DNA from: a virus
Direction: 5' to 3' (one strand)
DNA: 33,975 bases
Virus record (IMG/VR): IMGVR_UViG_3300022562_000337
Span: 1 to 33,975 of that record
Positions 3,675-26,050 of this stretch are shown here, in pieces. The number at the start of each line of letters is the position of its first letter. Position 1 is the stretch's first letter. The notes under the pieces are model-generated. The model saw nothing but the letters and a program-made list of their open reading frames with translations. It had not been told where the DNA came from and did not search any database. The translations under genes were made by a program, and so were the position numbers.

Positions 3675-4102
3675 AACGTGATCTCCCGTACCAGTTCATT
3701 GAAGTCAATCATCATGCCACTCGTCGTGTCCCAACGTCGCGTGGCGTGCATCAGCAACGCGGGGCGCGTCATGTAGCCCACGTTGCGCGCTGCCGTCAGC
3801 CCGTCGAATAACAAATGAGCACGTCCCACTCGCAATAGCATCCATGTGTACCCCGCCGCTTCCCACCGCAGCCGGAGCCAGTTGCGTTGCGAGTCAGAAT
3901 AGCGCGCCATGCGCACTATCGTTGTTTCACGCGCCGGCCAAGCCGCCAGGGACTTCAGCTCGATCCACCCATGCCGCCCATGACCTGAGTACGACAGGTC
4001 AGGGACGCCAGCATTCAACGCATCCTCATGATGGCACGTCAGTACACCCCGTATCGCGAGGTTCTCGCGAACGTACCTCCTCAACGCTGCCTCACCACTC
4101 AT
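3671..4102 (-). CDS. VRR-NUC-like PD-(D/E)XK nuclease (143 aa)
   Basis: The motif GVPDLSYSGHGRHGWIELK at residues 32-50 gives the D, E-x-K core of the PD-(D/E)XK fold, with an upstream acidic residue in HHEDALNAG. Length and layout match small phage VRR-NUC nucleases, which cut branched or replication-intermediate DNA. It overlaps the DNA polymerase stop by 4 nt, supporting a replication or recombination role, perhaps as the phage Holliday junction resolvase. Substrate specificity is inference. Confidence 0.8.
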   Translation of the reverse strand: MSGEAALRRYVRENLAIRGVLTCHHEDALNAGVPDLSYSGHGRHGWIELKSLAAWPARETTIVRMARYSDSQRNWLRLRWEAAGYTWMLLRVGRAHLLFDGLTAARNVGYMTRPALLMHATRRWDTTSGMMIDFNELVREITL

Positions 4103-6075
4103 TTCAAATTCCCCCAGGTTGGTCCACTCTCCCGCTCAGCCAGCAACGGGACCCTTAACTTCACGCAGTGCTCCATGATGTTGTGCGCCTCCTGCAGCGC
4201 CTCCTGCGCGGCAGGCGTGCGTGGCGCACTCCAGTCCAACTCGTCATGCACGGTGAGCAACGGCGCACCGAGCACGTCGCACACACCGCTCTCCCAAATA
4301 TCGACCATCGCTTTTTTCATTATATCGGCCGCCCCGCCCTGCAGCATTCGGTTGAGCGCCTTGTGCGCCAAGCCGCGCCGAATCTGAATCCCCCACTCCG
4401 CCTCGGCCGCTTCACGTGGCAGCAGTGATGGCGCGTTGGGTTTAACGCGTTTCTTGTCGCGTGGTTCCCACAACTCGAACCGTGAACGGCGTCCAAGCAG
4501 CGTGCGCGTGTACCCGCGGTTGAGCGCAACGCGTGACGCTTCATCGAACGTCTCCTTCACGAACGGCAACGCCTCGTGATACTTCTTGAATAGCTCGAGC
4601 GTCGCCTCCTTTGTGCGCCCGAGATTGGCGGCCATCGTCGGCACGCCCATGCCGTACACGAGGCCAAAGTTGATGTTCTTCGCCGGCTTCCTCATGTGGG
4701 GATCACCGCCGAAGACCCACTCATTGACCAGTGCATGAAAATCGGTATCGGGGTCGCTGACGTATTTGGCACGCGCTTCAGCCGCCCCCGCCCCACGGCC
4801 GTAGTGCACGAGCAGCCGATACTCGATCTGTGACCAGTCGAAGCGCACCCAATCCTCATCCGGCTCCGGCAGGTATAGCCCTCGGATCAGTGGCGCCATT
4901 GAATCGTCACGCGACGGAATGTTCTGAAGGTTGGGATTGCTTGAACTGAATCTCCCCGACACCGTGCCGTACTCATCGCCCTTCGCAGGATGAAATTGCG
5001 AATGGATGCGCCCGTTAACGACGTGCTCCAGCACGTACGACTGCACGAACGTACCACGGGCTTTGTCGATGGCGCGCAGGCGCAGGACGTCAGCGAAGAA
5101 TTGATGCTCCTGTGCCTTCAGCCACTTGGCCGTGAACGATGGCGCGCCGCCTGGCGTCAACGGGAACTCCAGCCCGTACTTGCGACAGTAGCCGGCAATC
5201 GTTTCGGCCGACCACACGTTGAGCCCGTCATAACGCGACTGCAGCTCCTGCAACTCAACACCCAAGTGTTCATCGAGGCGAGCGGCCGCGTCAAGGTCGA
5301 CGCGCACGCCCCGGCGGCGCATGGCTAGAAGGATCGGCAGGAGCCGATTCTCGATTCTCGCGAGGCCGAGTAGCTCATCACGATCCAATGCTTCCCACTG
5401 CGCTTCAGCGATACGGAGAGGGAGGTCAACGTCGCTTTCCGCGTAGGGTCCGACCAGAGCAGCAGGCGCTCGATAAATGTTGCCACGTTGCGAGCCGTTC
5501 GCTTTCCCCCCGTACGCGGCAGCGCACCAGTCGTAGAGCGCGGATGAGTGTTTGCCCTCGTCGAAGTATTTCTGTGCGAGCGCTTCGAGCGCGTAGGTCT
5601 TTGCGTTTTCATCGATCAATGCCTCCTGCCACTGTACGTCAATCGTAGGGCCTCGAACATGCACACCCTCGGCCGCCAGGGCCTCGAGGTCATAGAGCAG
5701 ATTCGCGCCCACCTTCGTCTGCCGCTCACGCGTCAACTCGTCACGCGCCCAGCGCAGCACCTGATCGGGGTCCATGTTCATCCCGCCCACTTCGTGACGC
5801 ATCGGGAAGTACCAGCGACCACCGTCGTCCGTCCCCACCGCGATTCCAACAACGTGCGCATCCCCTCGAACGAATCCCGGCCCGCGTTCACGCAGCCCCG
5901 GGTCCTTCGTTTCGCAATCGATGCTGAGCGTCTGGGCAGCATCGAGGCGAGGGAACTCGGCCGGCGGTCTCCACCCCGTTTCAGGAATAGGCGGAGCGGC
6001 GCGTGCGACTGTCACGCCACGGCGGCCCTCGCGTGGCATGTCCTCCCAATACAGCCCACGGGAGTCGAATCTCAT
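4099..6075 (-). CDS. polA-like: Family A DNA polymerase with 3'-5' exonuclease (658 aa)
   Basis: This is the phage replicative polymerase. The exonuclease domain has Exo I (D53, E55 in SIDCETKD), Exo II (D129 in GANLLYDLEAL) and Exo III (Y211, D215 in YAESDVD), so proofreading appears intact. Polymerase motif A is FDWSQIEYR (D413), motif B is RKPAKNINFGLVYG (R462, K466, F470, Y474) and motif C is VHDELDW (H610, D611, E612). The O-helix Phe at 470 matches Taq F667. There is no N-terminal 5'-3' nuclease domain. The gene overlaps the clamp gene stop by 4 nt, linking polymerase and clamp. Confidence 0.97.
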   Translation of the reverse strand: MRFDSRGLYWEDMPREGRRGVTVARAAPPIPETGWRPPAEFPRLDAAQTLSIDCETKDPGLRERGPGFVRGDAHVVGIAVGTDDGGRWYFPMRHEVGGMNMDPDQVLRWARDELTRERQTKVGANLLYDLEALAAEGVHVRGPTIDVQWQEALIDENAKTYALEALAQKYFDEGKHSSALYDWCAAAYGGKANGSQRGNIYRAPAALVGPYAESDVDLPLRIAEAQWEALDRDELLGLARIENRLLPILLAMRRRGVRVDLDAAARLDEHLGVELQELQSRYDGLNVWSAETIAGYCRKYGLEFPLTPGGAPSFTAKWLKAQEHQFFADVLRLRAIDKARGTFVQSYVLEHVVNGRIHSQFHPAKGDEYGTVSGRFSSSNPNLQNIPSRDDSMAPLIRGLYLPEPDEDWVRFDWSQIEYRLLVHYGRGAGAAEARAKYVSDPDTDFHALVNEWVFGGDPHMRKPAKNINFGLVYGMGVPTMAANLGRTKEATLELFKKYHEALPFVKETFDEASRVALNRGYTRTLLGRRSRFELWEPRDKKRVKPNAPSLLPREAAEAEWGIQIRRGLAHKALNRMLQGGAADIMKKAMVDIWESGVCDVLGAPLLTVHDELDWSAPRTPAAQEALQEAHNIMEHCVKLRVPLLAERESGPTWGNLK

Positions 6076-7037
6076 CGCACGCCCACCACCACGCCGTCAA
6101 TCACATTGCTGCGCCAGTACGACGGATTGGGATACGCGGAGAGGTCAATGTCCTGCGCGACCTCGAGCACTGGCAACAGCACGTCCGCACGGAAACGCGC
6201 CTCGGGCAACGCACCGCACGCGACCTGGGCGCACATATCGCCCTCCATCGTGCTCACGCCCTTGTCGCCCGTCACGATGATGGGGATCCTTGGATCAGGG
6301 CAGAACGGCGCGACCTTCAACACCGCCTCGGCCAGGCCTTTCGTACTCACCATTTTGTTCGGCACCTTCGTTGGCATGATTTTCGACACGTCAGGCCACT
6401 CGCCTGTGAGCAGCTGCGCCTTCAGCCATATCCCATCGCCCAAATCGAATGTCACGGCCACGTCCGTCGCCATCATCTTGCGCGGCTCGCGATCAATGCG
6501 CAGCAACTCCTCGACGGCAAACACGGGAATGGCAACAACAGGGTACCCCGCTCCGATCGGCATCCGCGCTAGCGTCACGTTGTTCGTGGCCCACGCGTAG
6601 CCATCACGCAGCAACACCGACGCGCACCATGGCCGTGACGCGTCCTCGCCGACGAACGGGAACAACGTGCCAAGGCTCAACAGGAATGTCTTGGGCAGTG
6701 CATACTGTTTCGCCTCGCCGCGTCTGTACTCACTGCGCGGGAATGAGTCGTGCGAGGCGAGGGGCAGCGTGGCCCGGAACTTCGCACGCGTCAACGTCAA
6801 GCGCCCTGCGTCGCTCACCTTAATTTTCGGCTCACCCTCGCACGCGTCCACCGCATCAAGAAATCGCTTCGCAGGGACGGTTACATCTAGCCCTGCGAGC
6901 TCTTCGCAAGGGGCGTCAATCGTCACGCGACCATTCCCGCCCTGCACGCGCCCTGAGTAGATGTGGAAGTGCGTCAGTACGGGCAGTAGATCCTTCGTGC
7001 TCACCGCCCCTCGAACCAAATCCAATGTCTCACGCAT
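6072..7037 (-). CDS. Sliding clamp-like protein (DnaN/beta-clamp homologue, 321 aa)
   Basis: The opening, ending STKDLLPVLTHFHIY, and the three-part beta-rich layout match phage beta-clamp proteins. The sequence includes VTVPAKRFLDAVDAC and a late NVIDGVVVGVR. The length is somewhat shorter than bacterial DnaN (about 366). It would tether the family A polymerase encoded directly downstream, and it starts 8 nt inside the DpdA gene. No clamp loader gene is visible, so loading may rely on the host. Confidence 0.8.
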   Translation of the reverse strand: MRETLDLVRGAVSTKDLLPVLTHFHIYSGRVQGGNGRVTIDAPCEELAGLDVTVPAKRFLDAVDACEGEPKIKVSDAGRLTLTRAKFRATLPLASHDSFPRSEYRRGEAKQYALPKTFLLSLGTLFPFVGEDASRPWCASVLLRDGYAWATNNVTLARMPIGAGYPVVAIPVFAVEELLRIDREPRKMMATDVAVTFDLGDGIWLKAQLLTGEWPDVSKIMPTKVPNKMVSTKGLAEAVLKVAPFCPDPRIPIIVTGDKGVSTMEGDMCAQVACGALPEARFRADVLLPVLEVAQDIDLSAYPNPSYWRSNVIDGVVVGVR

Positions 7038-7965
7038 CGAACAGACCCTCCTCTAATGGCAGTACGCCCTGCGCCTCCGCCGTGTCACACGCCTGCTTAA
7101 ACGCGAGCAGGTTCCACTTCTTCCTCATCTCGCTGTCCGTCGTTAGCTGCTCACGCGTGCACCCTGAGCGTTGCTCGATCTCGTCGAATACGCGATCCGC
7201 AAGAGCGGGCGCGATGCTCAGCAGGTGTCGATCAAACTCATGCTTGCGCGGCGACTCGACGGATAACGGAATCAACGACAGCGATCCGTCACTGTTGACC
7301 CATGCAATAGCGCCGTAGGCCGCCCACAGAATCCACGATGCCGAGTCGACGCTATACCACGGGGCTGTGCGAAGCATGCGCGTGCCTGTCATCGCCAACC
7401 CATGCAGCTTCCGTCCCTCGAATCGTCTCGACGCGTGCCCGACCCAACGCCGTCGCAATTCGTATGGCAAATTCTGCGACGCGCCCAACCCAACGAACTC
7501 GGCATCATCGTATGCGTCCGCCAACCAGTCGGGATCGCCCAGGTGGAATACCGGCTTGATCTCGCCGCGTACAACTCGACGCATGTGCTCGTAGTTCGAG
7601 CGCGTTTCCTTGGCCGCTTCGAGCACTTCGTCCTGCGTGGGATGCTCGCCCCGTCGTCCCGGGATCTTGTCGAGCGCCACGAACGTCCAGTCGAACACGT
7701 CGGCATACCTATCCAGCATCTCGTTGCACGTGTCGCAGAAGCGCGTGAGCGATACCGACTTCCCCAACGACCACGACGTGAACGCGCCGCTGTCCAGCAT
7801 GTACGGCAGGCGCAGCTTCATGGGGCGCAGGCGTTTGGCCAGCGCCTCGGCCTGCTTGCGTAGCGCGGCCTCGTACGCGAAGCTGGTCAGTACGGGGATC
7901 CCGTGTTGAACGACGACATCCAGCAGCTCGGGGTGCTGCACCGCTCCCGATGCGTAGAAGTGCAT
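7030..7965 (-). CDS. dpdA: DpdA-like DNA guanine transglycosylase (311 aa)
   Basis: This protein should exchange guanine in DNA for a 7-deazaguanine. It resembles the TGT superfamily, with LDSGAF at residues 57-62 (candidate catalytic Asp58), FVALDKIPG at 95-103, HLGDPDW at 141-147, KLHGLAMTGT at 187-196 and YSVDSASW at 204-211. The CxCxxC zinc site of bacterial Tgt is absent. I chose the ATG at 7965 because GGAGG precedes it and it forms a TAATG with the amidotransferase stop. Longer in-frame starts read through that gene. Its place at the end of a preQ0 synthesis run strongly supports DNA, rather than tRNA, modification. Confidence 0.88.
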   Translation of the reverse strand: MHFYASGAVQHPELLDVVVQHGIPVLTSFAYEAALRKQAEALAKRLRPMKLRLPYMLDSGAFTSWSLGKSVSLTRFCDTCNEMLDRYADVFDWTFVALDKIPGRRGEHPTQDEVLEAAKETRSNYEHMRRVVRGEIKPVFHLGDPDWLADAYDDAEFVGLGASQNLPYELRRRWVGHASRRFEGRKLHGLAMTGTRMLRTAPWYSVDSASWILWAAYGAIAWVNSDGSLSLIPLSVESPRKHEFDRHLLSIAPALADRVFDEIEQRSGCTREQLTTDSEMRKKWNLLAFKQACDTAEAQGVLPLEEGLFDA

Positions 7966-9260
7966 TAGCGAACCTCCTCCAGGCGCTTCTCGTCCTCGCT
8001 GTACTTCGTGCGCTGCACAACGATGCTGGGTGCCCGGTACACGTTCTCCAGCAGGTTTCGGAACAGCGCCTTGCCTCGTGCCCTGCGCGTCGACAGCAAC
8101 GCGAACGACAGCAGCGACGCAAGGAATGGGCAACGGTACTCGACGCTGTGCGCCATGCCCAGCTTGTTCGTGCGGTCGAGGTTGATGTTGGGCATGGCTG
8201 CCACGGTGCTCAGGCATTTTGCCAGCGTGTCGAGCGGGTCGCGTATTCGATCCTCGGCGAAGTGCGACGTGTAACCACCGAGAAGCTCGTCGGCACCCTC
8301 GCCCGACAGCATCACCTTGACACCGTGCGCGTGCGCCTCGCGCGCCACGTACCAGTTGCGCAGCGCCCCGCGCCACTTGACCGGAGACATCGCACTGAAC
8401 TCGGCGTATGAGATATCCATGCGCTCGAGCAACAGGCGACGGTCAGGCAGCACGTCCGGGATGCGAACGCGCACGAGGTCCCAGCCTAACGATTCCGTGA
8501 CAGCCTGCGCAGCCATGTAGTCCGCGCTGTCCTCGTCCTCGGGCGTGGCGCATACGACAAGATCTGGCTTGAGACCGTTGAACGCCAGCGCGTACGCGAT
8601 CACCGATGAGTCGAGGCCACCCGACAGTGCCAGCCCGAATCCCACGTCCGTGTGCATCGCACGTGTCCGCACCGCCTCGCCAACGAGCGCGGCAATCGTG
8701 TCGAGTCGCACTGTGCTATTGCCCGTCGCCCCGTAGTGCGGCATTCGATCCCGCTGCAGAATGCCACGGCCCTCCTCGGTGGAGATCACGATGCGCTCGT
8801 GCGCTTTCACCTCGCGAGGATTGGTGAGTAGATTGCGCTCGGACGAGACTGCGAGGTACGGCACGAGTTGAAAATACAAAGGGCACACGCCGAAGCGATC
8901 CCGATACAACGTCACCTGCCTCTGCGACGGGTTGTAGTAAACGATAGCGTAGTCCCCGTCTATGAACTGCCGCGGATCGAGATCACGATCAAGGAGCTCG
9001 CCCAGCATGTCGACCTCACTGGTTGCTCTCGGCATCAGGTGCTGGTAATTGTATAGCTCCCCGTTGAATGCGACGAAGCGCCCGGCTCGTGTTATGCGAG
9101 GCTGCTCCCCCGCGTCAACGCTCACGATTGCCAAGCGCGTAAAACCCATGTGATATCCGCCTGCCGTGATACCCGAGGTTCCGTCAGGGCCGCGGTGGCG
9201 CATGGCATCAAGCGCGTGAGAGACCTCCGATACGTTGCTGCTAAAGAAGATGCCGCACAT
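7965..9260 (-). CDS. AsnB-like class II glutamine amidotransferase, candidate preQ0-to-G+ enzyme (431 aa)
   Basis: Cys2 of MCGIFF is the class II glutaminase nucleophile. RHRGPDG (21-27) and FNGELYNY (65-72) complete that domain. Residues 213-218 (SGGLDS) form the ATP pyrophosphatase loop, and SGEGADELLGGY (319-330) is the asparagine synthetase signature. It is shorter than AsnB (about 550). It starts 20 nt inside queC and ends in a TAATG with dpdA. From that position I infer that it transfers ammonia to a 7-deazaguanine nitrile, giving the formamidine of archaeosine, rather than making asparagine. Plain asparagine synthesis is the alternative. Confidence 0.85.
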   Translation of the reverse strand: MCGIFFSSNVSEVSHALDAMRHRGPDGTSGITAGGYHMGFTRLAIVSVDAGEQPRITRAGRFVAFNGELYNYQHLMPRATSEVDMLGELLDRDLDPRQFIDGDYAIVYYNPSQRQVTLYRDRFGVCPLYFQLVPYLAVSSERNLLTNPREVKAHERIVISTEEGRGILQRDRMPHYGATGNSTVRLDTIAALVGEAVRTRAMHTDVGFGLALSGGLDSSVIAYALAFNGLKPDLVVCATPEDEDSADYMAAQAVTESLGWDLVRVRIPDVLPDRRLLLERMDISYAEFSAMSPVKWRGALRNWYVAREAHAHGVKVMLSGEGADELLGGYTSHFAEDRIRDPLDTLAKCLSTVAAMPNINLDRTNKLGMAHSVEYRCPFLASLLSFALLSTRRARGKALFRNLLENVYRAPSIVVQRTKYSEDEKRLEEVR

Positions 9261-9885
9261 GTCTCATCACCTCCTCGTGTAGAACGCTTTTCGCCTTGCA
9301 GTGCGTGCACACTCCGCACTCCTGCTCGCCCGTCGACTCATAGCACGAGAATGTGTGCGAGAAGATAGATGGGTCGTTCTCAACGACCACCACTGACAGA
9401 TAATCCCACCGCTCCCTGTTACCGAACGGCGCGATGGCTCGCGGGAAGTCTTTGCCATAGAGCGAGCGCGTGAGGCTGTTGAGATGATCAAGCCACACTG
9501 CCTGTGCGTCGTTGAACACGCTGCCCGCGGGCTCCTTGTGAAAGCCGAACCACACCTCGCCCGCCCCTATCGATGACGCGAACGACAGCGCCATGGACGC
9601 AAACAACAGGTTCCGGCCCATGATGTAGTTGTCGCTATGCTTCTGCGCCATCGTGCCGTACACCAGTGGCGACTCGATATACACGTGGGGGAGAAGCGCG
9701 GTGACGAGTTTCAGGCCATACTTTTCCGAATAGTACTCGGCCGCCAGCTGCTCACCCACCCTCGCCTTCTGACCATAATCGATTTGGTACAGTATGGGAG
9801 CCAGCCCATGCGCCAGCGCATACTCGACCATGGCCCCACTGTCCAATCCACCGCCGAACGCTATCACTACTTTACCGTTGTTCAT
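9241..9885 (-). CDS. queC: QueC, 7-cyano-7-deazaguanine synthase (214 aa)
   Basis: QueC converts 7-carboxy-7-deazaguanine to preQ0 using ATP and ammonia. The PP-loop is FGGGLDS (residues 9-15), and the C-terminal zinc site is CYESTGEQECGVC followed by THC, matching the four-cysteine QueC pattern. Length is near normal. The first loop residue is Gly instead of the usual Ser (SGGxDS). The start overlaps folE by 4 nt. It completes the preQ0 pathway started by folE, queD and queE upstream. Confidence 0.9.
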   Translation of the reverse strand: MNNGKVVIAFGGGLDSGAMVEYALAHGLAPILYQIDYGQKARVGEQLAAEYYSEKYGLKLVTALLPHVYIESPLVYGTMAQKHSDNYIMGRNLLFASMALSFASSIGAGEVWFGFHKEPAGSVFNDAQAVWLDHLNSLTRSLYGKDFPRAIAPFGNRERWDYLSVVVVENDPSIFSHTFSCYESTGEQECGVCTHCKAKSVLHEEVMRHVRHLL

Positions 9886-10439
9886 TTTTCCTCCGTCATG
9901 CTATAGAATTCTGCACGGACCTCGCTGTTAGTCAAGAACGTGCCGCGGAGCGCGGACGTCAGCGTCTCCGAGCCCTGTCGCTGTATACCTCGCGATTCCA
10001 TGCACAGGTGTCGACAACGCACGACCACACCCGCGCCCTTCGGTGCGAGGTGCTCCCAAAGCGCATCGGCGATCTGCTTCGTCATGCGCTCCTGAACCTG
10101 GAGACGGCGTGCGTACACGTCGACCAGGCGCGACAGCTTGCTAAGCCCCACGATGCGCCCATTGGGAATGTAGGCGACGTGCGCGATGCCGAAGAACGGC
10201 GCGAGGTGATGCTCGCAGTGTGAGTACACCGGGATACTGCGCACCATCACCATCTGATCGTAATGCTCCGCGCCGTCCTCGAACACCTTGAGCACGTCGG
10301 CGGGATCAATGTCGTACCCACCCGCCCAATGCTTCCATGCCTTGAGCACACGAAGAGGAGTCTCACGAAGCCCCTCCCGATCAACGTTCTCCCCGATCAC
10401 GAACTTGAGGAGGTCCTGAATGATTCCTGCGCCGCTCAT
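9882..10439 (-). CDS. folE: GTP cyclohydrolase I (FolE type, 185 aa)
   Basis: It makes dihydroneopterin triphosphate from GTP, the first step to preQ0. Visible signatures are REGLRETPLRV near the start, YSHCEHHLAPFFG (zinc Cys and His), GLSKLSRLVDVYARRLQVQE, and C-terminal CRHLCMESRG with GSETLTSALRG. The protein is full-length and no key residue seems missing. It is translated from an ATG overlapping the queD stop. A phage copy probably boosts precursor supply beyond the host folate pathway. Confidence 0.95.
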   Translation of the reverse strand: MSGAGIIQDLLKFVIGENVDREGLRETPLRVLKAWKHWAGGYDIDPADVLKVFEDGAEHYDQMVMVRSIPVYSHCEHHLAPFFGIAHVAYIPNGRIVGLSKLSRLVDVYARRLQVQERMTKQIADALWEHLAPKGAGVVVRCRHLCMESRGIQRQGSETLTSALRGTFLTNSEVRAEFYSMTEEK

Positions 10440-10864
10440 ATCTGCACCGCCTCAGCGCTGCACTTGCGCGTCTCCTCCACGACCACGCGAATCAGGCGCG
10501 TGCCTGTGCCAACGAGCACCGAGGGGCCGACCACCTTGAGCAGATGGTCGGCCATGTTCTCGGCGGTAGGGTTGAACGGGAGGAGCACCACGCCGCCCGG
10601 GTCGTAGTGCGTTAGCACGGTTGAGAGGTGGTCCTGATCCCACAGCAGGAACTTGTGATCCCAGCACGTCTCGAGCCAGTCGCACAGCCGGTCCTTGATG
10701 ACAGAAAAATCCAGCACACGTCCTACGCCGTCAAGCGGGCCCTCGACGGTGAAGTGTACTCGGTAGTTGTGGCCATGCAGGTGAGCGCACTTGTTCTCAT
10801 GCCCTACCACCCGATGGCCGGCACAGAAATCGTGATACCTCGTTGCCGTGATTGCGTGGTTCAT
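10436..10864 (-). CDS. queD: QueD, 6-carboxy-5,6,7,8-tetrahydropterin synthase (142 aa)
   Basis: It converts dihydroneopterin triphosphate to 6-carboxytetrahydropterin. Zinc-ligand histidines lie in FCAGHRV and CAHLHGHNYRV, which also carries the catalytic Cys27. WDHKFLLWDQ and NPTAENMADHLL are typical later motifs, and a C-terminal VEETRKC supplies the substrate-binding Glu. Length is normal for the family. It overlaps queE by 4 nt. Confidence 0.94.
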   Translation of the reverse strand: MNHAITATRYHDFCAGHRVVGHENKCAHLHGHNYRVHFTVEGPLDGVGRVLDFSVIKDRLCDWLETCWDHKFLLWDQDHLSTVLTHYDPGGVVLLPFNPTAENMADHLLKVVGPSVLVGTGTRLIRVVVEETRKCSAEAVQI

Positions 10865-11562
10865 GGTAGCTCCAGTATCTTGTGAAGTTGAAGTGACAGC
10901 CGGTAACCAAAACGCATTGCCGACTCCTTCGCCGCTTCGAGGTTCGCCGCATTCCGAACCGGGTCGTGATCGTCGCGAGGCTGTACGAAGATAGGGGTAT
11001 AGTACAGCGACGGCGGCCGTGCTACCCGGCCCTCCACGCCGGTTGGCATGACGTTCGGCAACCCATCATCCGTTGCGATCTCGCCTGCTGCAACGACATA
11101 CTTCCAAGCGGCAGCGCGACGTTCGATCTCGGGATTGATGCGCCCGGTCTTGGGTGAGACGATTATGTTGAGGTCGTACGGCATGCCGGTGAGCCACAGT
11201 GTCCCGGCCGTTTCGATCTCCACGCGTGGGTCACATGCGAGGGCGCGAAGCTCACGCACGAAATCCACGATGTCTTGACGGAACGGCTCGCCTCCCGTGA
11301 TCACAACCAGTGGCCGACGTTGCGTGATGACGCCGATCTCGCGCATGACGCGAACGAGGAGCTCACCTCGTCCCATCCACTGCCCGCTCTCGAACTCAGT
11401 ATCGCACCAACGGCATGCCAGGTTGCATCCTGAAAGACGGACGAAGACCGCCGGCATTCCCGCCGACGGCCCCTCGCCCTGAACAGTGCGGAACACGTCC
11501 TGGACCCAGAGCGCACCGTCCTCTCGCAGCTCCTGTTTCCTGATAGGATTAGTTCCGAACAT
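10861..11562 (-). CDS. queE: QueE, radical SAM 7-carboxy-7-deazaguanine synthase (233 aa)
   Basis: The CxxxCxxC cluster site is at residues 46-53 (CNLACRWC) and is followed by DTEFESG, as in QueE. FRTVQGEGPSAG near residue 24 and VITGGEPFRQ are further signatures. It forms the 7-deazaguanine ring from carboxytetrahydropterin. It is the first gene of the modification block. Its AGGAGGT ribosome site overlaps the stop of the preceding gene, so no separate promoter fits here and it should be read from upstream. Confidence 0.95.
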   Translation of the reverse strand: MFGTNPIRKQELREDGALWVQDVFRTVQGEGPSAGMPAVFVRLSGCNLACRWCDTEFESGQWMGRGELLVRVMREIGVITQRRPLVVITGGEPFRQDIVDFVRELRALACDPRVEIETAGTLWLTGMPYDLNIIVSPKTGRINPEIERRAAAWKYVVAAGEIATDDGLPNVMPTGVEGRVARPPSLYYTPIFVQPRDDHDPVRNAANLEAAKESAMRFGYRLSLQLHKILELP

Positions 11563-18225: not shown

Positions 18226-19740
18226 CTATTTCTCCTGTAACCATGAGCGCATCCCGCTCGTGTCTAGCAACGTGTCCGCCACGTCGCGTTTGCCGCTTAA
18301 CGAGTTGCGGATTTTTACGTCAACGGTGCCCGGCGCTAGCAGGTCAGTGTAAGCGCTCGCCCGTTTCTTGTCTAACGCGATCACTCTATCCTCGCTTTGC
18401 AATCGATGACGAAGCGAGAACGTGTTCGAGTAGTACAACGTGTCGTCCGCGACGTTCAACAGCAACCCGCGGCCGCCTGCTGCTTGCTGACCGATGAAGA
18501 ACCTCGGCCACTTCGCGTTTTGAAAATCGGTGCGCACGCGAAGGCGCTTGTCACGAGCGATGCCCCCATGATACTCGCCCACTGACGCGTCGCCATACGC
18601 CTCGCGCAACGTCGACGCGATGCGCTCAAGCTCTGGACGATAGCGCGCCCACACAACGACCTTGCCACGCGCCTTCTCAACCTCCTGCACCAGAGCCTCG
18701 ATGCGCGGGCACTTCTCGTCAATCATCGTCACCACGCCATCGTCCTGGGGAAGGAACCCGCCCGTGATCTGCTGCAGCCTACCCAACCTTGCCAGCTGGT
18801 TTGCAATCGTGAGCTGCGCACCGTTCTCGAGTTCCAGTAGCATCGTCTTGCGTGCGCGTTCGTAGTAATCGCGTTGCCGATCACTCAACGGGACGCTGCG
18901 CTGTGCATAGATCTTGTCGGGCAAATCTTCGCACTCGGCACGCGTCACGCGGAACGAGTGCGGGGAGATCAAGCGTTGCAGCTCCTCGAGGTTCTTGTAC
19001 TGCGGGCGCCCCTCGGCATCACGCGCCACGAGCTGCGGGACGACACGACGAGCACTCGGCGACTTTTCCTGTATCGCACGCAGCAACGCGTGACCTTCGG
19101 GGAGCAGCTCCGCGAAGTGCGCTTTGTACGTGTAGAACGACGTGAAGCCCAGCAGGTGCGGGTCGAGAAACCTGAACTGTGAATATAGCCCCAAGGGGTC
19201 GCCATCGACGGGCGTGCCGTCCAAGATTCGACGCATCCCCGCATGCCGTGACAGCTTCGTGATCTCCTTGGTACGCGATGACTTCGTACTCTTGATATCC
19301 GAGCTCTCGTCAATGGCCATCAGGCAACGGAACACGCGCAGGAACTTCGCCGCGGCTTCACGCGCACGCTTGCTGGTTGAGAATGCCTCGGTGTTCATCG
19401 CAAGGACATGGAAGCGGGGAGATGTCGCGGGATCATACAGCGCGGCCTCGTCGCGTTTGCGCAGCTTCCCGTTCCACAGCGCTATCACGGGCTCGCCCGC
19501 CCACTCGGGCCAATGCGTCGGGAAGTATTCGTTAACCCAGTCCTCATGCACGCCGTTGGGCGCGAGCATCAGCAAGCCACCAATGCGCCCCTTCGCATAC
19601 GACCAGGCACAGGTGTCGATGAGCACCTTCGACTTGCCGGTGCGCTGTTCCATGAGTAAGGCGAACGCTTCCCGATCCCGGGAGATGTTGAAAGCAATCT
19701 CTTGATGACGCCACGGCGCCACCTTGTGAACGTAATCCAT
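18226..19740 (-). CDS. SNF2-like superfamily 2 helicase (504 aa)
   Basis: Walker A is EQRTGKSK (residues 31-38), motif II is AIDESS (D144, E145), and ILDGTPVDGDP is motif III. The C-terminal RecA-like lobe has VVVWARYRPELERI and GRGLLLNVADDTLYYSN. Motif VI starts normally with LQSEDR but continues VIALDKK instead of the usual HRIGQ-like sequence. Phage SNF2-type enzymes act as translocases in replication or recombination. GAGGA lies 7 nt before the ATG. It is the first gene after the non-coding control region. Confidence 0.85.
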   Translation of the reverse strand: MDYVHKVAPWRHQEIAFNISRDREAFALLMEQRTGKSKVLIDTCAWSYAKGRIGGLLMLAPNGVHEDWVNEYFPTHWPEWAGEPVIALWNGKLRKRDEAALYDPATSPRFHVLAMNTEAFSTSKRAREAAAKFLRVFRCLMAIDESSDIKSTKSSRTKEITKLSRHAGMRRILDGTPVDGDPLGLYSQFRFLDPHLLGFTSFYTYKAHFAELLPEGHALLRAIQEKSPSARRVVPQLVARDAEGRPQYKNLEELQRLISPHSFRVTRAECEDLPDKIYAQRSVPLSDRQRDYYERARKTMLLELENGAQLTIANQLARLGRLQQITGGFLPQDDGVVTMIDEKCPRIEALVQEVEKARGKVVVWARYRPELERIASTLREAYGDASVGEYHGGIARDKRLRVRTDFQNAKWPRFFIGQQAAGGRGLLLNVADDTLYYSNTFSLRHRLQSEDRVIALDKKRASAYTDLLAPGTVDVKIRNSLSGKRDVADTLLDTSGMRSWLQEK

Positions 19741-19817
19741 CTTCTATCCTCGACGTTATGCTCGCGCATTACATCACGAGGGCTTTACGGCGCATAGTCC
19801 TAATGCGACACCGCCCC

Positions 19818-19891
19818 GTATATATGGCGAGTCGAGTAGATTAAATTAAGTTTGGGAATTTAATTTAATCTGTTCAATTCGTCATATATAC
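19818..19891 (+). other. Long imperfect AT-rich inverted repeat (32- to 35-bp stem)
   Basis: Positions 19818-19849 pair with 19860-19891: 27 Watson-Crick pairs, four G-T pairs and one C-A mismatch. Three more pairs (one of them G-T) can form inward, leaving a TGGG loop. The non-Watson-Crick pairs are nearly all G-U if the plus strand is the RNA, but A-C mismatches on the minus strand, so the structure is most stable in a plus-strand transcript or plus-strand ssDNA. Confidence 0.75.
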
Positions 19892-19932
19892 AACGACGCG
19901 AACGACGCACGACCCCGCAGATCTTTCTGGGA

Positions 19933-19965
19933 CGTGCGGGGCACATGCGAACGACGCCCCGCACG
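19933..19965. other. GC-rich 10-bp hairpin downstream of Rz1
   Basis: CGTGCGGGGC and GCCCCGCACG pair perfectly around a 13-nt loop. On the minus strand it lies about 40 nt past the Rz1 stop, where a late-operon terminator is expected, but no U-run follows. It could be a non-canonical terminator or part of an origin. Confidence 0.55.
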
Positions 19966-20003
19966 GATCTCGATTCACAAACGGCCCCATCTCGTTGTGC
20001 GCG

Positions 20004-20342
20004 TCAATCGCAACGCGTCAATTGTTCGCGCAACGCCCGCTTCTGTGCGTTGTCCTTGTCGACCTTGTCGCGCAGGTCACGGAGCGCTACGCCCAGGTCG
20101 CCGTTGATCGCACCTTGCGGCGCATCACTGAGGGCGATCTCCTGCAGAAGGCTCAGGTCGGGGTGGCACGTTGTCACGGCTACCGTGGCTGGACAGCCCC
20201 CAAGCAAAGGCAACGGCATCAGCAGGAATGCGAGTTTGCCACCAATCGCGTAGCGCCTGATTCGACGCGATAAGCGCCTCGATGCGTGCGTTGGCGCGAT
20301 GCCGTTCGGCGTCGGCTTCGGCTTCTCGTTTGCGTAACTCAT
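20004..20342 (-). CDS. Rz1: Rz1-like outer-membrane spanin lipoprotein (112 aa)
   Basis: The gene starts inside Rz in another frame. I chose the ATG at 20342 since GAGGAG lies 8 nt upstream; the ATG at 20348 is too close. A long basic N-region (RRLSRRIRRYAIGGK) precedes a hydrophobic stretch and the lipobox LLGGC, with the lipidated Cys at residue 50. The mature part has two more cysteines and a helical charged end (LRDLRDKVDKDNAQKRALRE). It should join Rz across the periplasm to fuse the membranes at lysis. The long n-region is unusual. Confidence 0.82.
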   Translation of the reverse strand: MSYANEKPKPTPNGIAPTHASRRLSRRIRRYAIGGKLAFLLMPLPLLGGCPATVAVTTCHPDLSLLQEIALSDAPQGAINGDLGVALRDLRDKVDKDNAQKRALREQLTRCD

Positions 20343-20508
20343 CAGCATGTCTCCTCTTCAGTTCGTTCATGGCCTGATCTGCTGCAGCCATCTTCACTAG
20401 CCACAGCCCCTTCTCATACTCACGGCCGTCGGTGTATTGCGTCTCACCATAGTACCACACGCCCGCAACCACCGCGACGGCGATCCCCACATAGACCCAG
20501 ACGTTCAT
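20125..20508 (-). CDS. Rz: Rz-like inner-membrane spanin (127 aa)
   Basis: An N-terminal transmembrane anchor (VWVYVGIAVAVVAGVWYYG) is followed by a long periplasmic coiled coil rich in Arg, Glu and Ala (ELKRRHADELRKREAEADAE), the standard i-spanin layout. The ATG overlaps the stop of the HNH gene (ATGA), with GGGAG upstream. Rz1 lies within and beyond its 3' part. The pair is the last step of lysis in Gram-negative hosts. Confidence 0.88.
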   Translation of the reverse strand: MNVWVYVGIAVAVVAGVWYYGETQYTDGREYEKGLWLVKMAAADQAMNELKRRHADELRKREAEADAERHRANARIEALIASNQALRDWWQTRIPADAVAFAWGLSSHGSRDNVPPRPEPSAGDRPQ

Positions 20509-20894
20509 TTTGGAAAGCTCCCACACCCTGTCGCATATACAGATTGCTCGAACCGATCCTTGCATGGAATGCCGGTAGCGGTCGCGCACGTCTTGATAGC
20601 GATGGGCAGCCATTGCATGTTGAACACCGCGTCGCAGCCGCACTGCGCGAGCGGGATGATGTGATCCATCTCCCACTCGGGGCAAGGCCCGTCGAACTTT
20701 TGAGTTGATGGGCATGCCCATAGTTTACGGAATGCAGCACGGACTGCGGCAGATCGGATAATGACGCCGTCTGCATTTCGCTTGGGCGGACCGCAGAGTC
20801 GTGTCTCGGTGAGCTGCCACTGCTCGACCGCGAACGTCGGAGAGACGAACAGGTAGAGCGTGACGGTCAGGATTAGCAGTGTCGTAAGCCTCAC
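20505..20894 (-). CDS. Exported HNH-type nuclease in the lysis cassette (129 aa)
   Basis: A GTG start overlaps the upstream stop (GTGA), with AGGAG upstream. Residues 1-22 form a Sec signal peptide (LTTLLILTVTLYLF and so on, cleaved after FA). The mature part has WEMDHIIPLAQ (H78 as metal and catalytic centre), FNMQWLP (N92) and CKDRFEQ, an HNH/His-Me fold core. Eight cysteines suggest disulfide bonds in the periplasm. The family is known as small secreted HNH proteins. Its target could be DNA released at lysis or incoming phage DNA, which is inference. Confidence 0.75.
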   Translation of the reverse strand: MRLTTLLILTVTLYLFVSPTFAVEQWQLTETRLCGPPKRNADGVIIRSAAVRAAFRKLWACPSTQKFDGPCPEWEMDHIIPLAQCGCDAVFNMQWLPIAIKTCATATGIPCKDRFEQSVYATGCGSFPK

Positions 20895-21343
20895 GACACG
20901 AAGACTCCTGTGCGTCGGGCCAGACCGCAGTGATTCGGATCCCACGGCTCGACCATCTTCTTGCAGATGAACTTCGCGAGAGCGGTGCGCCAACCTTTCT
21001 TCTGCTGGACGAGCCGCTTCATTCGCGAGGTGAGTGTCCATTCCCATCGACTGAAACCTTTCCCCTGTTTGCGAATACGGGGGAAGCTCCAGAATAGAAG
21101 GTTAGCGACGGTATGCTCGAAGATGATGTCGTAGATGAACGTCACAAGTGCGAGCGGATAGCCCGGAATGCTGAGCGCCCACCACTGCCAGTCGCCCTTG
21201 TCGTATTTGAGCCGCTTATAGTACAGCGTCGCCGCGCTCGCGAACAGCACCCAGAATACGAACGACAAGATCAGCGCCCACAGCGGTAACGTCGGGTGCG
21301 CGATCAGTGTGTTGATGATGGTTGAGAGGATGAACTCAAGCAT
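20891..21343 (-). CDS. Membrane protein of unknown function in the lysis cassette (150 aa)
   Basis: Two to three hydrophobic segments are visible: residues about 2-14, 18-42 (LWALILSFVFWVLFASAATL) and 55-75. A long basic C-terminal region follows (SRMKRLVQQKKGWRTALAKF). GGAG lies 7 nt before the ATG. It does not match known holin classes I can recognise. It may be an accessory lysis or superinfection protein, inferred from position only. Confidence 0.7.
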   Translation of the reverse strand: MLEFILSTIINTLIAHPTLPLWALILSFVFWVLFASAATLYYKRLKYDKGDWQWWALSIPGYPLALVTFIYDIIFEHTVANLLFWSFPRIRKQGKGFSRWEWTLTSRMKRLVQQKKGWRTALAKFICKKMVEPWDPNHCGLARRTGVFVS

Positions 21344-21344
21344 T

Positions 21345-21569
21345 TCATTTCTCCAGTTTGTTGATGACCTTCACCGGCACTTCGAGCCGTGGGGTGATCA
21401 CCTTCTCGATGACCACCTTCTCCAACGGCGCGCACGTGACGGTAAAGTTAGTTGGCGTGTTCGGGAAGTTCTGTCCTGCATTGAACCCGAGCAACGCGCC
21501 GCCCAACGCCCACGGCACGCCCAGCTTCAAGCCGAGTGTCAGGGGCCGTTTCTCTTTATCGTTTGCCAT
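21345..21569 (-). CDS. Small single-pass membrane protein (74 aa)
   Basis: A basic N-terminus (MANDKEKRPLTLGLK) precedes one helix (LGVPWALGGALLGFNAG). The C-terminal 40 residues would be periplasmic and contain one Cys. It starts 14 nt inside the preceding gene, with GAGGTGA upstream. The topology is like a small antiholin or spanin component, but no family is recognised. Confidence 0.65.
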   Translation of the reverse strand: MANDKEKRPLTLGLKLGVPWALGGALLGFNAGQNFPNTPTNFTVTCAPLEKVVIEKVITPRLEVPVKVINKLEK

Positions 21570-21903
21570 CGAACGTCACCTCGGTATGGATACGAGGGTT
21601 AGCGTTCGCGGGAACGATGCTACCGGCATCGGTGCGCTGTGCTGGCTTGTCCTTCGTGAAGCACAGCCGCCAGGCCCCGTGTTCGTTGTAGCGATGGTGC
21701 AGCATTTCGAGCCCGCACACGACAAGCCCCGTGATCAATACGCCACGCACCGCGCGCTGCGTGTCGTGGAAATCGTCGCCCTGATCCGTTGTGCTCGTCA
21801 CGACAGGCGCGGGCGTGGGAGTCGGGGAGGGCTTGGAATGATCGTGTGCGAAGGCGAACGTGGAGAACGCGAGCGCAACGATGAACGCGACGAATGACTT
21901 CAT
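21556..21903 (-). CDS. Exported or membrane-anchored protein of unknown function (115 aa)
   Basis: Residues 1-19 form a signal peptide ending FAFA, followed by HDH and a Pro/Thr-rich linker (SKPSPTPTPAPV). A second hydrophobic helix near residues 54-67 (VLITGLVVCGLEML) could anchor it. The start overlaps the previous stop (ATGA), with GAGGTGA upstream. A His-rich mature N-terminus might bind metal. The function is unknown; it is one of four unexplained genes between endolysin and spanins. Confidence 0.65.
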   Translation of the reverse strand: MKSFVAFIVALAFSTFAFAHDHSKPSPTPTPAPVVTSTTDQGDDFHDTQRAVRGVLITGLVVCGLEMLHHRYNEHGAWRLCFTKDKPAQRTDAGSIVPANANPRIHTEVTFDGKR

Positions 21904-22268
21904 TGCTTCACCTCTTGGGTTTGTTGAACGGGTACTGCTGACTGCGCTTGCCCCGGGGCCTTGAGCTGCTCAAGCGGCTTGCCCCAGATGATTTTGGCCG
22001 TGATCGGGCCGACCCATGCGCCAACGTAAATGGCCAGGTAGCCCTCGGTAATCGTTTTGTGCGTCACCATGTAAACCATCATCCAAGTCATCATGGCAAA
22101 GGAAGCCATGAAGCAGAATGCGAACTTGTCGAGCTTCCCGTTGTGCATGAGAAGGTCGGCAAGGTCGAACTCGGGCCGGTGCAGGTCACGCTGCAGCCGG
22201 TACAGAACAAGCACTCCGATCAGAACGGCGATAAGCAACAGCCCCAGCATAGGGTCAAGCGTGATCAC
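21900..22268 (-). CDS. Membrane protein, possible second holin or antiholin (122 aa)
   Basis: The GTG start overlaps the endolysin stop (GTGA). Hydrophobic segments lie at about residues 7-24 (MLGLLLIAVLIGVLVLY), 48-68 (FAFCFMASFAMMTWMMVYMV) and 74-92. A Gln-rich soluble tail follows. Size and three membrane segments fit a class I holin-like or antiholin protein, but the LydA-like gene upstream already supplies a holin. The family is not recognised. Confidence 0.65.
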   Translation of the reverse strand: MITLDPMLGLLLIAVLIGVLVLYRLQRDLHRPEFDLADLLMHNGKLDKFAFCFMASFAMMTWMMVYMVTHKTITEGYLAIYVGAWVGPITAKIIWGKPLEQLKAPGQAQSAVPVQQTQEVKQ

Positions 22269-22675
22269 GTTGTCTCCTCGATAATCTCAAAGTGTGGGCC
22301 ATCAAAGAACGACTCGTCCTTGCTCGTGCCGTTAAGGTTCCAGTCGCCGCCCCATCGCAGCTTGACTCCCAAAACCGCAGCCACGCCAAGAACGAAGCCG
22401 GCGAACTGGACGAAGCGAGCATGGTCGTTCCAGTCGAGCGGATAAGGAGCCACGTCTGCCGCAAGCGACGGCAAGCTGTTATGCTTGCTGTTCGGCCACT
22501 GGACCTTCGAGCGTTGCGGCTTCGCGTTGAATGCTTCATTCTGTTCCTCTTCTGTGCGATGCCCGCATAGCACGATGCAGTCGCGGTGTTTAATTACCTC
22601 GTTGAAAACAATCTGTAGGCGAACGTCACAAGTAGCTAGCGCCGCCTTACTTTTGTCGCTGAATGAGAAGCTCAC
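22265..22675 (-). CDS. M15 peptidase endolysin (136 aa)
   Basis: This protein should cut peptide cross-links in peptidoglycan, like phage L-alanyl-D-glutamate peptidases and VanY-type enzymes. Zinc ligands are H65 in SKHNSL, D74 in AADV and H128 in PHFE, with E130 beside it. LCGHRTEEEQNEAF is the usual N-terminal motif and RWGGDW precedes the last ligand. There is no signal peptide, so it needs the holin. The GTG start overlaps the holin stop (GTGA). Confidence 0.92.
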   Translation of the reverse strand: MSFSFSDKSKAALATCDVRLQIVFNEVIKHRDCIVLCGHRTEEEQNEAFNAKPQRSKVQWPNSKHNSLPSLAADVAPYPLDWNDHARFVQFAGFVLGVAAVLGVKLRWGGDWNLNGTSKDESFFDGPHFEIIEETT

Positions 22676-22977
22676 AGAAATTTCCTCTTCAGGTAATTCT
22701 CCAGGATCATGATGGCACGCGAGCCCATGTGCCCGCTGATCCCGACGAAGGCCGCGGTCACAAGTGGAGGCAGGTCAGCGGCTTCGCATAGGTAGAATGT
22801 GACGATCCCCGTGAAGGCGGAGATCACGAGTTCACCGATGAACTCGAACACGCTCCACTTCTCCGTCATGCCATCACGAACCCGCTGGAAAAAGTTTGCC
22901 GCGCCTCCTAGCATAGCCAATCCTCCGACCCACAAGTAGGTCAACAATGAATAGTTTGTAGGGTCCTTCATGCTCAC
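22672..22977 (-). CDS. LydA-like holin (101 aa)
   Basis: Three membrane segments lie at about residues 10-28, 44-64 and 68-90, and the ending SGHMGSRAIMILENYLK resembles the P1 LydA holin family. The GTG at 22977 has GGGAG 8 nt upstream. An ATG two codons on (MKDPTNY) could give a slightly shorter form. It precedes the endolysin, as expected. Confidence 0.85.
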   Translation of the reverse strand: MSMKDPTNYSLLTYLWVGGLAMLGGAANFFQRVRDGMTEKWSVFEFIGELVISAFTGIVTFYLCEAADLPPLVTAAFVGISGHMGSRAIMILENYLKRKFL

Positions 22978-22989
22978 GTGTGATTCTCC

Positions 22990-24006
22990 CTAAGTCAGGT
23001 TCCACTGGAAGCCATGCACGGGAACAATGAGCGGTCCCTTGCGCGTGGCGATGGGGGTGTTGTCGATGCTGAAATCCCCGTTCATCAGCAGCTCCGAAAT
23101 GTTGTAGCCTGGGTCATTCTGCTCGTGCATCGTGAGCAGGTCTTTCATGTAAGGCGACACTGGGTCAAGCAGCAGGATTCGATTTCCGGGCTTCATCACC
23201 CCGTCTGCAAACGGATGTGGGATCACGTTCATGTCGCGCAGCTTGTCGGCCATCGTCAGTTCGGCACGGACCTTGGCGTCGGTCTGGATGCGCTTCATCA
23301 CGATGTCTTTCTTTAGGCCCGCACGAATCGCGTTGCCGATGCTGCCATGCTCCGCGAGGATCTCAGGCAATGTGCGGAACACCTTGCCATCGCGGGCGTA
23401 CTCGAGCGCGGTCGGGTCGATGCGGTTCGGGCCGTTGTAGATCCACGGCGGGTCCTGCGCCACGTCCACGCGCACCACCTTGCCGCTCGGCTCGACCTCG
23501 ACGTAGATGAAGAGCGGCACTTCGCCATCGCCAAGATCATACGGCGGCGAGGCGGTGAAGTAGTACGCTTGAAAGTAATACGGATTGGAGATGCTACTAT
23601 CGGAGTTGTAAAACCCGATGGCCGTTCCATATGCTGCGCCGGGATAGGCCATGACTCGACAATTGGTGCTGCCGCTTCCGCCACTTCTTATGCTCCAACC
23701 GAGCGTATACAGGCCGCCCGTAAACGAAACTTCAACCATCGTGCTGGCGCCGACAGATGCCGAACTCTGCTGCGTCGATTTCTTTAGCTGTCCTTGGCCG
23801 ACGCTACTCGAGGCGAGCTGGCTTTGGCTGATCGCGAGCGAGCCGATCTTCGCGTTCGTCACCGCTGCGTCAGCGATGCCCGCCGTCTGCACTTGCGGCG
23901 CTCCGCTGTCGCCGTTGCACATGGCGGTGATATTGGCCTGTAGCTGCGTCATCTTCGTCGACGTCAGCGTACTACCATAGGAAAATGTCAGTGCGGTCCA
24001 AGTCAT
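22990..24006 (-). CDS. Tail fibre or tail tip protein (338 aa)
   Basis: The N-terminal part (MTWTALTFSYGSTLTSTKMT, then QLQANI and DAAVTNAKIGSLA) has the low-complexity pattern of phage tail fibre or spike shafts. Residues 85-180 are Ser/Gly/Tyr-rich beta structure. The C-terminal half is more globular, with DPPWIYNGPNRIDPTALEY and LPEILAEHGSIGNAIRAGL. It is the last structural gene before the holin. Host recognition is plausible but not shown. Confidence 0.75.
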   Translation of the reverse strand: MTWTALTFSYGSTLTSTKMTQLQANITAMCNGDSGAPQVQTAGIADAAVTNAKIGSLAISQSQLASSSVGQGQLKKSTQQSSASVGASTMVEVSFTGGLYTLGWSIRSGGSGSTNCRVMAYPGAAYGTAIGFYNSDSSISNPYYFQAYYFTASPPYDLGDGEVPLFIYVEVEPSGKVVRVDVAQDPPWIYNGPNRIDPTALEYARDGKVFRTLPEILAEHGSIGNAIRAGLKKDIVMKRIQTDAKVRAELTMADKLRDMNVIPHPFADGVMKPGNRILLLDPVSPYMKDLLTMHEQNDPGYNISELLMNGDFSIDNTPIATRKGPLIVPVHGFQWNLT

Positions 24007-24206
24007 TTGCTGCGCTCCTTGTCACGGAGCTGGTGCGTGAACTCAGCCACTTCGGCTAGGTGCGCAGGACACAGCTCTGGGTTTATGATGTCGGAATCAA
24101 ATTGAATACCCTGTAATGCACCCCATCCGGGAAAACCGGCGCCCGGTGATTTCTCGGTTTCTGTCAGGTTGCAAACGTCGCAACGTATGGTGCGTAGTTG
24201 GCTCAT
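24003..24206 (-). CDS. Small Cys/His zinc-binding protein between tail genes (67 aa)
   Basis: CDVC (residues 9-12) and CPAH (about 46-49) make a C-C-C-H zinc site around the conserved-looking GFPGWGALQGIQF. Both ends overlap neighbours by 4 nt, so it is translated with the tail genes. It may be a structural or assembly factor. I have seen no function for the family. Confidence 0.7.
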   Translation of the reverse strand: MSQLRTIRCDVCNLTETEKSPGAGFPGWGALQGIQFDSDIINPELCPAHLAEVAEFTHQLRDKERSK

Positions 24207-26050
24207 TGAAGTAAGTCTCCTCCGTCAAGTGCGCTAATATCGAGTAAGAATGGCGTGACGATTTGCGACCCGTCTGTGCTTAGTTTCATCGTCCCATTAT
24301 CCATATTTATGCTTCGCTGCATCACGCGCCAGCCATTGGACACGCCGATGTGCGGCTCGGCCACGATCAACGTCTCTCCAATGTACAGCAGCATGGGCTG
24401 TAGCAACGCGCTCACTTCCACGCGCTCATAAGGCTCACCCGACGTGAACATCACGCGCTGCGCAATAGTGGCTGCGTCCAGGGACGTCACATACCAGAAG
24501 TTCTCGCTTCGCAGGTAGCCTTCATGCAAACCGTAGCTGTTGATCGAGGCGGTCTTCACTTCAAACACACCGAGGTTCCAGTTTTTGCTGGTCGGGTCAT
24601 AGTTGCCATATGACCAGAACTTGTTGATGATGTCTGCTTCCTCGATACTCGCCCTCACGTCGGTGAAGTCATCGATCCCGAGGCTGGTGATGTTGGTGTT
24701 GATATTGGTGAAGCGAGCAAAGTGCAGCTTGTTGCTGGCCATGTAGCATGCGCTTTGCGTGAGGTTCGTAAGATCGCGCATTGCCTCGAGCACCTTCTTC
24801 CCCTGTACGCGCATCTGCATTGTCACGCTGTCCGCGCTGAACACCGCCGCCCACGCCTGAAATGATGCCCAATCGATGTCCGGGTTGCTGCTGTTCGCCG
24901 TTGAATCCAGCGCGCCGTAGCACGTGCACAGCGTCCACGCGATATCGCTCGGGATGATTGGGCCCATGATCGCGGGGCTGTCCGCATTCGTGCCCACGAT
25001 GCGCTCGGCAAGGTTCGTCAGCTTGTCGGCCATCGTGATGCCAATCTTCGCCTTGTTGTACTCCACCCGCGTCACATCGCCCACGAAGAGCGAGATGTAT
25101 TCGGGCGTCCCCGTTCCGCGACGTTCATCTTCTTGGCGCTCTATCCAAGCGGGGCTGTTCTCGAACACGGTGCTGTAGACCTGCGCGTATCCGCTGTTGG
25201 TCAGGGCCTCGCTGCCGATGTTGTCGAAACCGTAGTGTAGTTGGAGCTGTCCGCTGGTGAGGAAACTATAGTCGCCTCGGTACATGCGCTTGATCTGTGC
25301 GTCGGTCGGCGCGAAGGCGTAGGCGCGGCACTCGTCCAGTACGCCTACCACCTGATACGGCTTGAACAGCGGAAACGCTCCCCACCCGAAAACGGGCGAT
25401 AGGCTCGCGCAGCCGATCTTGCCTCCCGTTGAGGCGGACGCGACCAAACTGCCATTTACCCAAAGGCCGAGCCAGTCGCTGTTGATATTCCTCACGCCCA
25501 CGACGTGGTAGTCAAAATCGACCTCGCGCGAGGTTACGTCCTCGGCGTAGGTCGGGGTGCTGTCGCTGTGGACGTGCGTCATGCGGAACTGCCGCTGGCT
25601 GTCCATTGACAGCGATACTTGATACCGACCCCAAAATGGTCCGGTGATGACGGTGCCGCTGTCGCTCAGTGTGCAACTCGTGGGCTTGAACCACGCCTCC
25701 ATCGCGTAGTTGCTGCCTAGCATCGTTATTGGAGTGTCGCTGGTGACGAAGCGAATGCGGGCGCTGCTCGTGGTGTTCGTTACTCCGCCCCACCGACGGA
25801 AGCCCATCTTTAGCTCGCACTCAGCGCGCATCGTGGTCTTGTCTTCGCGGAAGAAGTTCATCGCGGTGTCTTCGTTCGCGAGATCGATGGCGACGGTGGT
25901 GGGGCGAAGATCATCCCACTTCTGGCTTAATGATGGCCAGCGCAGCACGCGGTCGCTGTAGTCGCTGCCAGCGATGGTGAACGAGCGAGCGATCACGGGA
26001 TTAGTGCTGTAGCACTGTTCTGCGAACCATGACGAGACTTCGTAGCCCAT
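24203..26050 (-). CDS. Tail hub-like minor tail protein with LamG-like insert (615 aa)
   Basis: I chose the ATG at 26050 because it forms TGATG with the upstream stop and has GGAG 8 nt before it. Residues about 100-270 look like a concanavalin/LamG beta sandwich (YAMEAWFKPTSC, then DYHVVGVRN, LGLWVNGSLV and VLDECRAYAFAPTDAQIKRM). The flanks, with FVGDVTRVEYNKAKIGITMA and VEVSALLQPMLLYIGETL, resemble baseplate hub proteins. The insert could bind host glycans. It follows a Dit-like small protein and the tape measure, the normal position of a hub or tail-associated protein. Confidence 0.75.
   Translation of the reverse strand: MGYEVSSWFAEQCYSTNPVIARSFTIAGSDYSDRVLRWPSLSQKWDDLRPTTVAIDLANEDTAMNFFREDKTTMRAECELKMGFRRWGGVTNTTSSARIRFVTSDTPITMLGSNYAMEAWFKPTSCTLSDSGTVITGPFWGRYQVSLSMDSQRQFRMTHVHSDSTPTYAEDVTSREVDFDYHVVGVRNINSDWLGLWVNGSLVASASTGGKIGCASLSPVFGWGAFPLFKPYQVVGVLDECRAYAFAPTDAQIKRMYRGDYSFLTSGQLQLHYGFDNIGSEALTNSGYAQVYSTVFENSPAWIERQEDERRGTGTPEYISLFVGDVTRVEYNKAKIGITMADKLTNLAERIVGTNADSPAIMGPIIPSDIAWTLCTCYGALDSTANSSNPDIDWASFQAWAAVFSADSVTMQMRVQGKKVLEAMRDLTNLTQSACYMASNKLHFARFTNINTNITSLGIDDFTDVRASIEEADIINKFWSYGNYDPTSKNWNLGVFEVKTASINSYGLHEGYLRSENFWYVTSLDAATIAQRVMFTSGEPYERVEVSALLQPMLLYIGETLIVAEPHIGVSNGWRVMQRSINMDNGTMKLSTDGSQIVTPFLLDISALDGGDLLQ

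Follow-up and report, generated by a model that had tools for sequence, protein, structure and literature searches.

The window, as the whole 33,975-nt stretch of one IMG/VR virus record is called here and to which all window coordinates refer, carries among its lysis genes an HNH gene which is a recurrent member of lysis cassettes across many cassette architectures. Judged from its overlapping ends, this gene is translationally coupled inside the lysis operon, and by motif and modelled fold its product is most likely a beta-beta-alpha-metal HNH nuclease with predicted activity. The best explanation, and the one towards which we lean, is a late exported nuclease that would degrade host DNA as the cell bursts. 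In the list of open reading frames nine tightly packed genes run on the minus strand from 22977 down to 20004, in the order holin, endolysin, M122, S115, M74, M150, HNH, Rz and Rz1:

22672..22977, minus strand: holin of LydA type, holin superfamily III, GTG start (PF16083 at 6e-24, above cut-off; phrog_785 at 5.7e-28)
22265..22675, minus strand: endolysin, M15-like peptidase (phrog_465 endolysin at 9.1e-34; PF13539 at 0.016, below cut-off)
21900..22268, minus strand: M122, putative three-segment membrane protein (hydropathy; phrog_1322 'membrane protein' at 1.4e-6, weak)
21556..21903, minus strand: S115, putative exported or membrane protein (signal-like N-terminus, Pro-rich linker, second hydrophobic segment)
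21345..21569, minus strand: M74, small protein with one weak hydrophobic segment (hydropathy)
20891..21343, minus strand: M150, putative membrane protein with at least two segments (hydropathy: two strong segments and a weaker stretch at the start)
20505..20894, minus strand: HNH, predicted exported HNH nuclease, GTG start (family alignment, Cys pairing, AlphaFold model, fold matches)
20125..20508, minus strand: Rz-type inner-membrane spanin (phrog_89 at 3.2e-4; phrog_1403 at 2.1e-3; TIGR03495 LysB at 3.5e-5, below cut-off)
20004..20348, minus strand: Rz1-type outer-membrane lipoprotein spanin (PF23793 LysC at 3e-5, just below cut-off; phrog_456 at 3.5e-6; lipobox LLGGC)

The sequence-only reading had counted five genes lying after the endolysin (22265-22675) and before the spanins (Rz 20125-20508, Rz1 20004-20348), and their positions, all on the minus strand, bear this out. 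Its three-helix membrane protein, its signal-peptide protein with a second helix and its two further membrane proteins are recovered by hydropathy as M122 (three hydrophobic segments), S115 (signal-like N-terminus and second segment), M74 (one weak segment) and M150 (two strong segments). That the insertion is larger than usual holds in a relative sense only, as L004, the nearest relative, carries four genes there. Like the lambda/P2 type of lysis cassette, the window keeps its holin and endolysin genes in a single operon with overlapping Rz/Rz1, but it differs from that type in the five extra genes from endolysin to spanins, one of which codes for the predicted exported HNH nuclease. As in two-component spanins, Rz has an N-terminal transmembrane segment and Rz1 is a lipoprotein read in another frame and largely overlapping. 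The N-terminal stretch of Rz1 (20193-20348) is unusually long, with the lipobox Cys at residue 52, and no ATG, GTG or TTG nearer the lipobox leaves a full signal peptide.

Overlaps of 4 nt join holin to endolysin, endolysin to M122, M150 to the GTG of HNH and the HNH stop to the ATG of Rz, most neighbours being joined likewise; S115 and M74 share 14 nt, M74 and M150 are spaced by 1 nt, and the tail gene upstream of the holin gene ends 12 nt before the holin start. Scanning the lysis region (19500-24300) for a sigma-70-like promoter gave none, and together with the gene layout this suggests that M122, S115, M74, M150 and HNH are probably co-transcribed with the lysis genes. In the 263-nt gap from Rz1 to a gene for an SNF2-type helicase lies an AT-rich inverted repeat, GATTAAATTAA / TTAATTTAATC (window 19839-19870; arms 19870-19860 and 19849-19839), which is a possible operator or terminator.

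Relatives were sought by scanning IMG/VR with a three-member profile, which gave 209 related stretches, the best 80 of which were retrieved. In L004, whose HNH protein is 61-64% identical by different measures, the order is endolysin, small membrane protein, S115-like gene, a gene at the position of M74, HNH, Rz and Rz1, without M150; this conserved order, along with the purifying selection seen in close HNH pairs (dN/dS 0.11-0.43), indicates that the cassette is more than chance. For a test of linkage, six Pfam endolysin families were searched over the whole contigs of 41 relatives, yielding 32 matches on 31 records, 23 of them within 2 kb of the HNH gene and all 23 on its strand. Uniform placement would lead to 5.4 matches within 2 kb, and 23 was never reached in 200,000 simulations, figures which assume a uniform background, come from relatives that are not independent and retain a bias, the six families having been picked after being noticed near HNH genes. 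No recognised endolysin lay within 2 kb in 18 of the 41 relatives; among the 31 with a match, eight had their endolysin farther than 2 kb away, the farthest nearest match being at 72 kb. On the HNH tree, which is poorly resolved, the endolysin type changes at least 12 times among eight kinds (three M15-related), and the side on which the endolysin gene stands, upstream or downstream of HNH, differs between lineages. In view of this linkage the HNH gene is a recurrent component of lysis cassettes and not a one-off insertion, a recurrence which the earlier description as an unusual insertion misses.

In L077 a short-form HNH gene sits between Rz and Rz1, and a relative of M150 opens the same gene run. 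By names that are putative and assigned by eye, except for the M150 match, this run (3669-6502) comprises the M150 relative, a papain-like/NlpC-P60-like gene, a holin-like gene, a DUF5675-like gene, Rz, the exported HNH and Rz1. An earlier near/far test of lysis genes, with seeds drawn from neighbours, was biased and was replaced by the whole-contig Pfam searches, and a hand-made detector of spanin pairs found few cases and was dropped.

The HNH family is hardly represented among cultured phages or in PHROGs. When 50,697 phage records were searched at the protein level with the HNH protein of the window and three other members, only MW202512 ('hnhc') matched, whose genome comes from the assembly of an environmental sample; a DNA-level search for close cultured phages gave none, and no PHROGs model matched the family convincingly, the matches to HNH models being weak. 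Being nearly invisible in these resources, the nuclease is missed by annotation pipelines. In the literature covered, with subscription papers mostly outside its scope, no paper was found that describes lysis cassettes with an exported HNH nuclease.

Short-form exported HNH proteins, carried by Proteobacteria, Acidobacteria, Nitrospirae and Myxococcales in GTDB and by the phage record MW202512, share with the window protein the core CP.T...CPG(Y/W)..DH...D...NMQW and a signal-like start, whereas the N-terminal RYCG stretch, the insert WLP...KS.C...C and some of the Cys pairs are found in the window protein, a long form, and are missing from them. Several are chromosomal and stand alone, unlike the window gene. 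One contig with a long form, L053, also has on the opposite strand a second HNH gene of the short exported form (10301-10687). A point against a function in lysis is that cargo genes are commonly found at the borders of lysis modules. The short forms that occur alone among ordinary, non-phage chromosomal genes of GTDB genomes would suit a role of benefit to the host or in the environment, with the gene as cargo at the lysis module and the released nuclease digesting extracellular or biofilm DNA or blocking DNA uptake. Prophage-borne secreted DNases of streptococci, which act outside the cell (PMC2658872), point in the same direction. We nevertheless consider such a role unlikely, since all four long-form members among the best 80 matches in GTDB genomes stood beside phage-like genes, and since the gene often lies within the cassette rather than at its border (L004, L077).

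Two roles had been proposed for the nuclease from the sequence alone. The second of these, the thinning out of host DNA at lysis, fits best and is supported by the predicted export and the active-site motif, with activity predicted. The first, superinfection exclusion, would have a periplasmic nuclease cut the DNA injected by later phages into an infected cell or lysogen; the predicted location agrees with it, and integrase was matched in 8 of 29 relatives (one match below cut-off), which suggests that lifestyles are mixed and that some carriers are probably temperate. Lysis operons are normally silent in lysogens, and exclusion appears rather unlikely because the HNH gene is coupled in the middle of a probably late operon without a promoter-like site, where it would act late only. 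Furthermore, the relatives keep their lysis setting beside many endolysin types, and most of those tested, whose records are fragments, had no integrase match.

Linked to these proposals was the idea that phage DNA modified with deazaguanine might be spared. QueE-, QueD-, FolE-, QueC- and TGT-like proteins are encoded at 7030-11562, and this gene set, which the window does carry, points to modified phage DNA. The link is not general, however: QueC was found in only one of 29 records carrying the nuclease, these records being incomplete, and an obligate pairing of nuclease and deazaguanine DNA was set aside on this count.

As listed, the HNH reading frame begins at an upstream ATG (21047). The GTG at 20894, giving a product of 129 aa, was taken as the likely start because it overlaps the M150 stop by 4 nt and places a hydrophobic, signal-like segment (MRLTTLLILTVTLYLFVSPTFA) at the N-terminus; from this start the signal peptide and eight cysteines noticed earlier are both present, all eight Cys lying in the mature part. 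The core motif D77-H78...N92 is intact. In an alignment of 63 sequences H78, N92, C61, C71 and W95 are invariant and D77 is conserved in at least 90%, the conservation of H78, N92 and D77 being expected if catalysis is kept. A third canonical HNH histidine was not seen in these sequences, and at its place K112-D113 is nearly invariant; HNH variants without the third histidine exist, for example I-HmuI. This departure from the commonest HNH pattern would be in accord with a protein that has a structural or regulatory part in lysis and retains an HNH fold without activity, which is improbable against the conservation of the other catalytic positions.

With Pfam PF01844 (HNH) the protein scored 12.4 bits, below the curated cut-off of 21.4, for which reason no named HNH subfamily is claimed. 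The AlphaFold model (mean pLDDT 86; core 92-97) shows a beta-beta-alpha arrangement of strands 74-78 and 93-97 and helix 112-120. A sequence search of the PDB with the window protein as single query gave no match; a profile search of solved chains placed Cas8-HNH closest, with McrA and ZRANB3 weakly behind, and the fold was matched by Cas8-HNH (VIA Z about 6), EcoKMcrA (4.5) and the Gme HNH nickase (3.8), modest values which bear on the core fold alone. These three enzymes have the beta-beta-alpha HNH core and (D/H)H...N motif of the window protein; they are cytoplasmic, whereas the window protein is predicted to be exported and rich in disulphides, and the likeness is confined to the core (Z about 4-6).

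A signal-peptide-like start, judged by hydropathy and start-codon context, was seen in 64 of 65 distinct relatives examined, three of these with a lipobox-like motif. Across 51 distinct long-form members the cysteines co-vary in pairs, gained and lost two at a time: C61/C71 (C2/C3) are always present, C85/C124 (C4/C8) show no exception, C34/C87 (C1/C5) show two, and C103/C111 (C6/C7) occur both in 23 members and neither in 28, with Fisher values that overstate independence, the rows being related. This paired gain and loss strongly suggests four disulphides in the window protein (34-87, 61-71, 85-124 and 103-111) and supports folding outside the cytoplasm in an oxidising compartment, as in a periplasmic enzyme; export of the protein is thus most likely. 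Homing and packaging enzymes account for most phage HNH genes, and the HNH motif is common to both, but with the export-like N-terminus in those 64 relatives, the paired cysteines and weak matches to PHROGs HNH models, an enzyme of either kind that only resembles an exported protein is very improbable, and a packaging nuclease of the HK97 gp74 type and a homing endonuclease, each of them cytoplasmic, were set aside.

In L050 (5438-6300) an Rz-like gene immediately precedes the HNH gene; the HNH product begins with a lipobox-like sequence, LVGCAQ, and is perhaps a membrane-anchored form of the nuclease. In L039 (5680-6384) the HNH reading frame stays open a long way upstream, and the N-terminal extension bears the motif 'DGCTLAPDGTWGSCCRIHDYARR'; the frame may merge two genes or be a fusion.

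With host-DNA degradation at lysis as the preferred explanation, the HNH gene would give rise to a Sec-exported, disulphide-locked beta-beta-alpha-metal nuclease, made late alongside holin, endolysin and spanins and stored in the periplasm, apart from the cytoplasm where virions assemble, so that no immunity protein would be needed. Once the envelope has been opened by holin, endolysin and spanins, the nuclease would come upon the host chromosome that spills out and upon DNA left unpackaged and would cut both, with packaged genomes shielded by their capsids. Such cutting would lower viscosity and free virions from the DNA tangle, possibly also from environmental DNA. More broadly, and with a confidence that stops a little short of even, we propose DNA degradation as a dedicated, selected enzymatic lysis step in many Gram-negative phages, in which a periplasm-stored, disulphide-locked nuclease would be released on rupture of the envelope, and which phages would have kept or regained while swapping unrelated endolysins.

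Gram-negative phage lysis has been described as three steps, of holin, endolysin and spanin, all directed at the envelope. If the proposal is true, a widespread exported nuclease would constitute a fourth step, aimed at the tangle of released DNA, and DNA cutting may be a regular, overlooked part of exit for such uncultured phages, with a bearing on phage production and on the amount of bacterial DNA that survives lysis for uptake by other cells. According to a passage in PMC2658872 (citing Broudy 2002), a role in lowering viscosity after phage lysis was proposed for Spd1, a secreted DNase of streptococci that is encoded by a phage. Spd1-like prophage DNases are phage-encoded and secreted, as is predicted for the window HNH protein; likened here by description, they belong to Gram-positive hosts and have been studied as virulence-linked cargo, whereas the window gene lies in a cassette of Gram-negative type with spanins. 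The old viscosity proposal for phage DNases would become directly testable.

Among the four small genes beside HNH, M122 and S115 had no relatives in the viral_contigs scan. S115 has a weak counterpart by position in L004 (31% identity) and weak similarity to an HNH neighbour in L066 (E 0.0088), and the positional counterpart of M74 is L004:5775-5966 (30% identity, weak). For M150 a distant relative (phmmer E 0.002; tblastn 7e-6) was detected among the lysis genes of L077/L079; in viral_contigs a single query gave none, and the alignment gave only these two known loci. The position of M122, S115, M74 and M150 suggests that they may be lysis accessories such as holin regulators.
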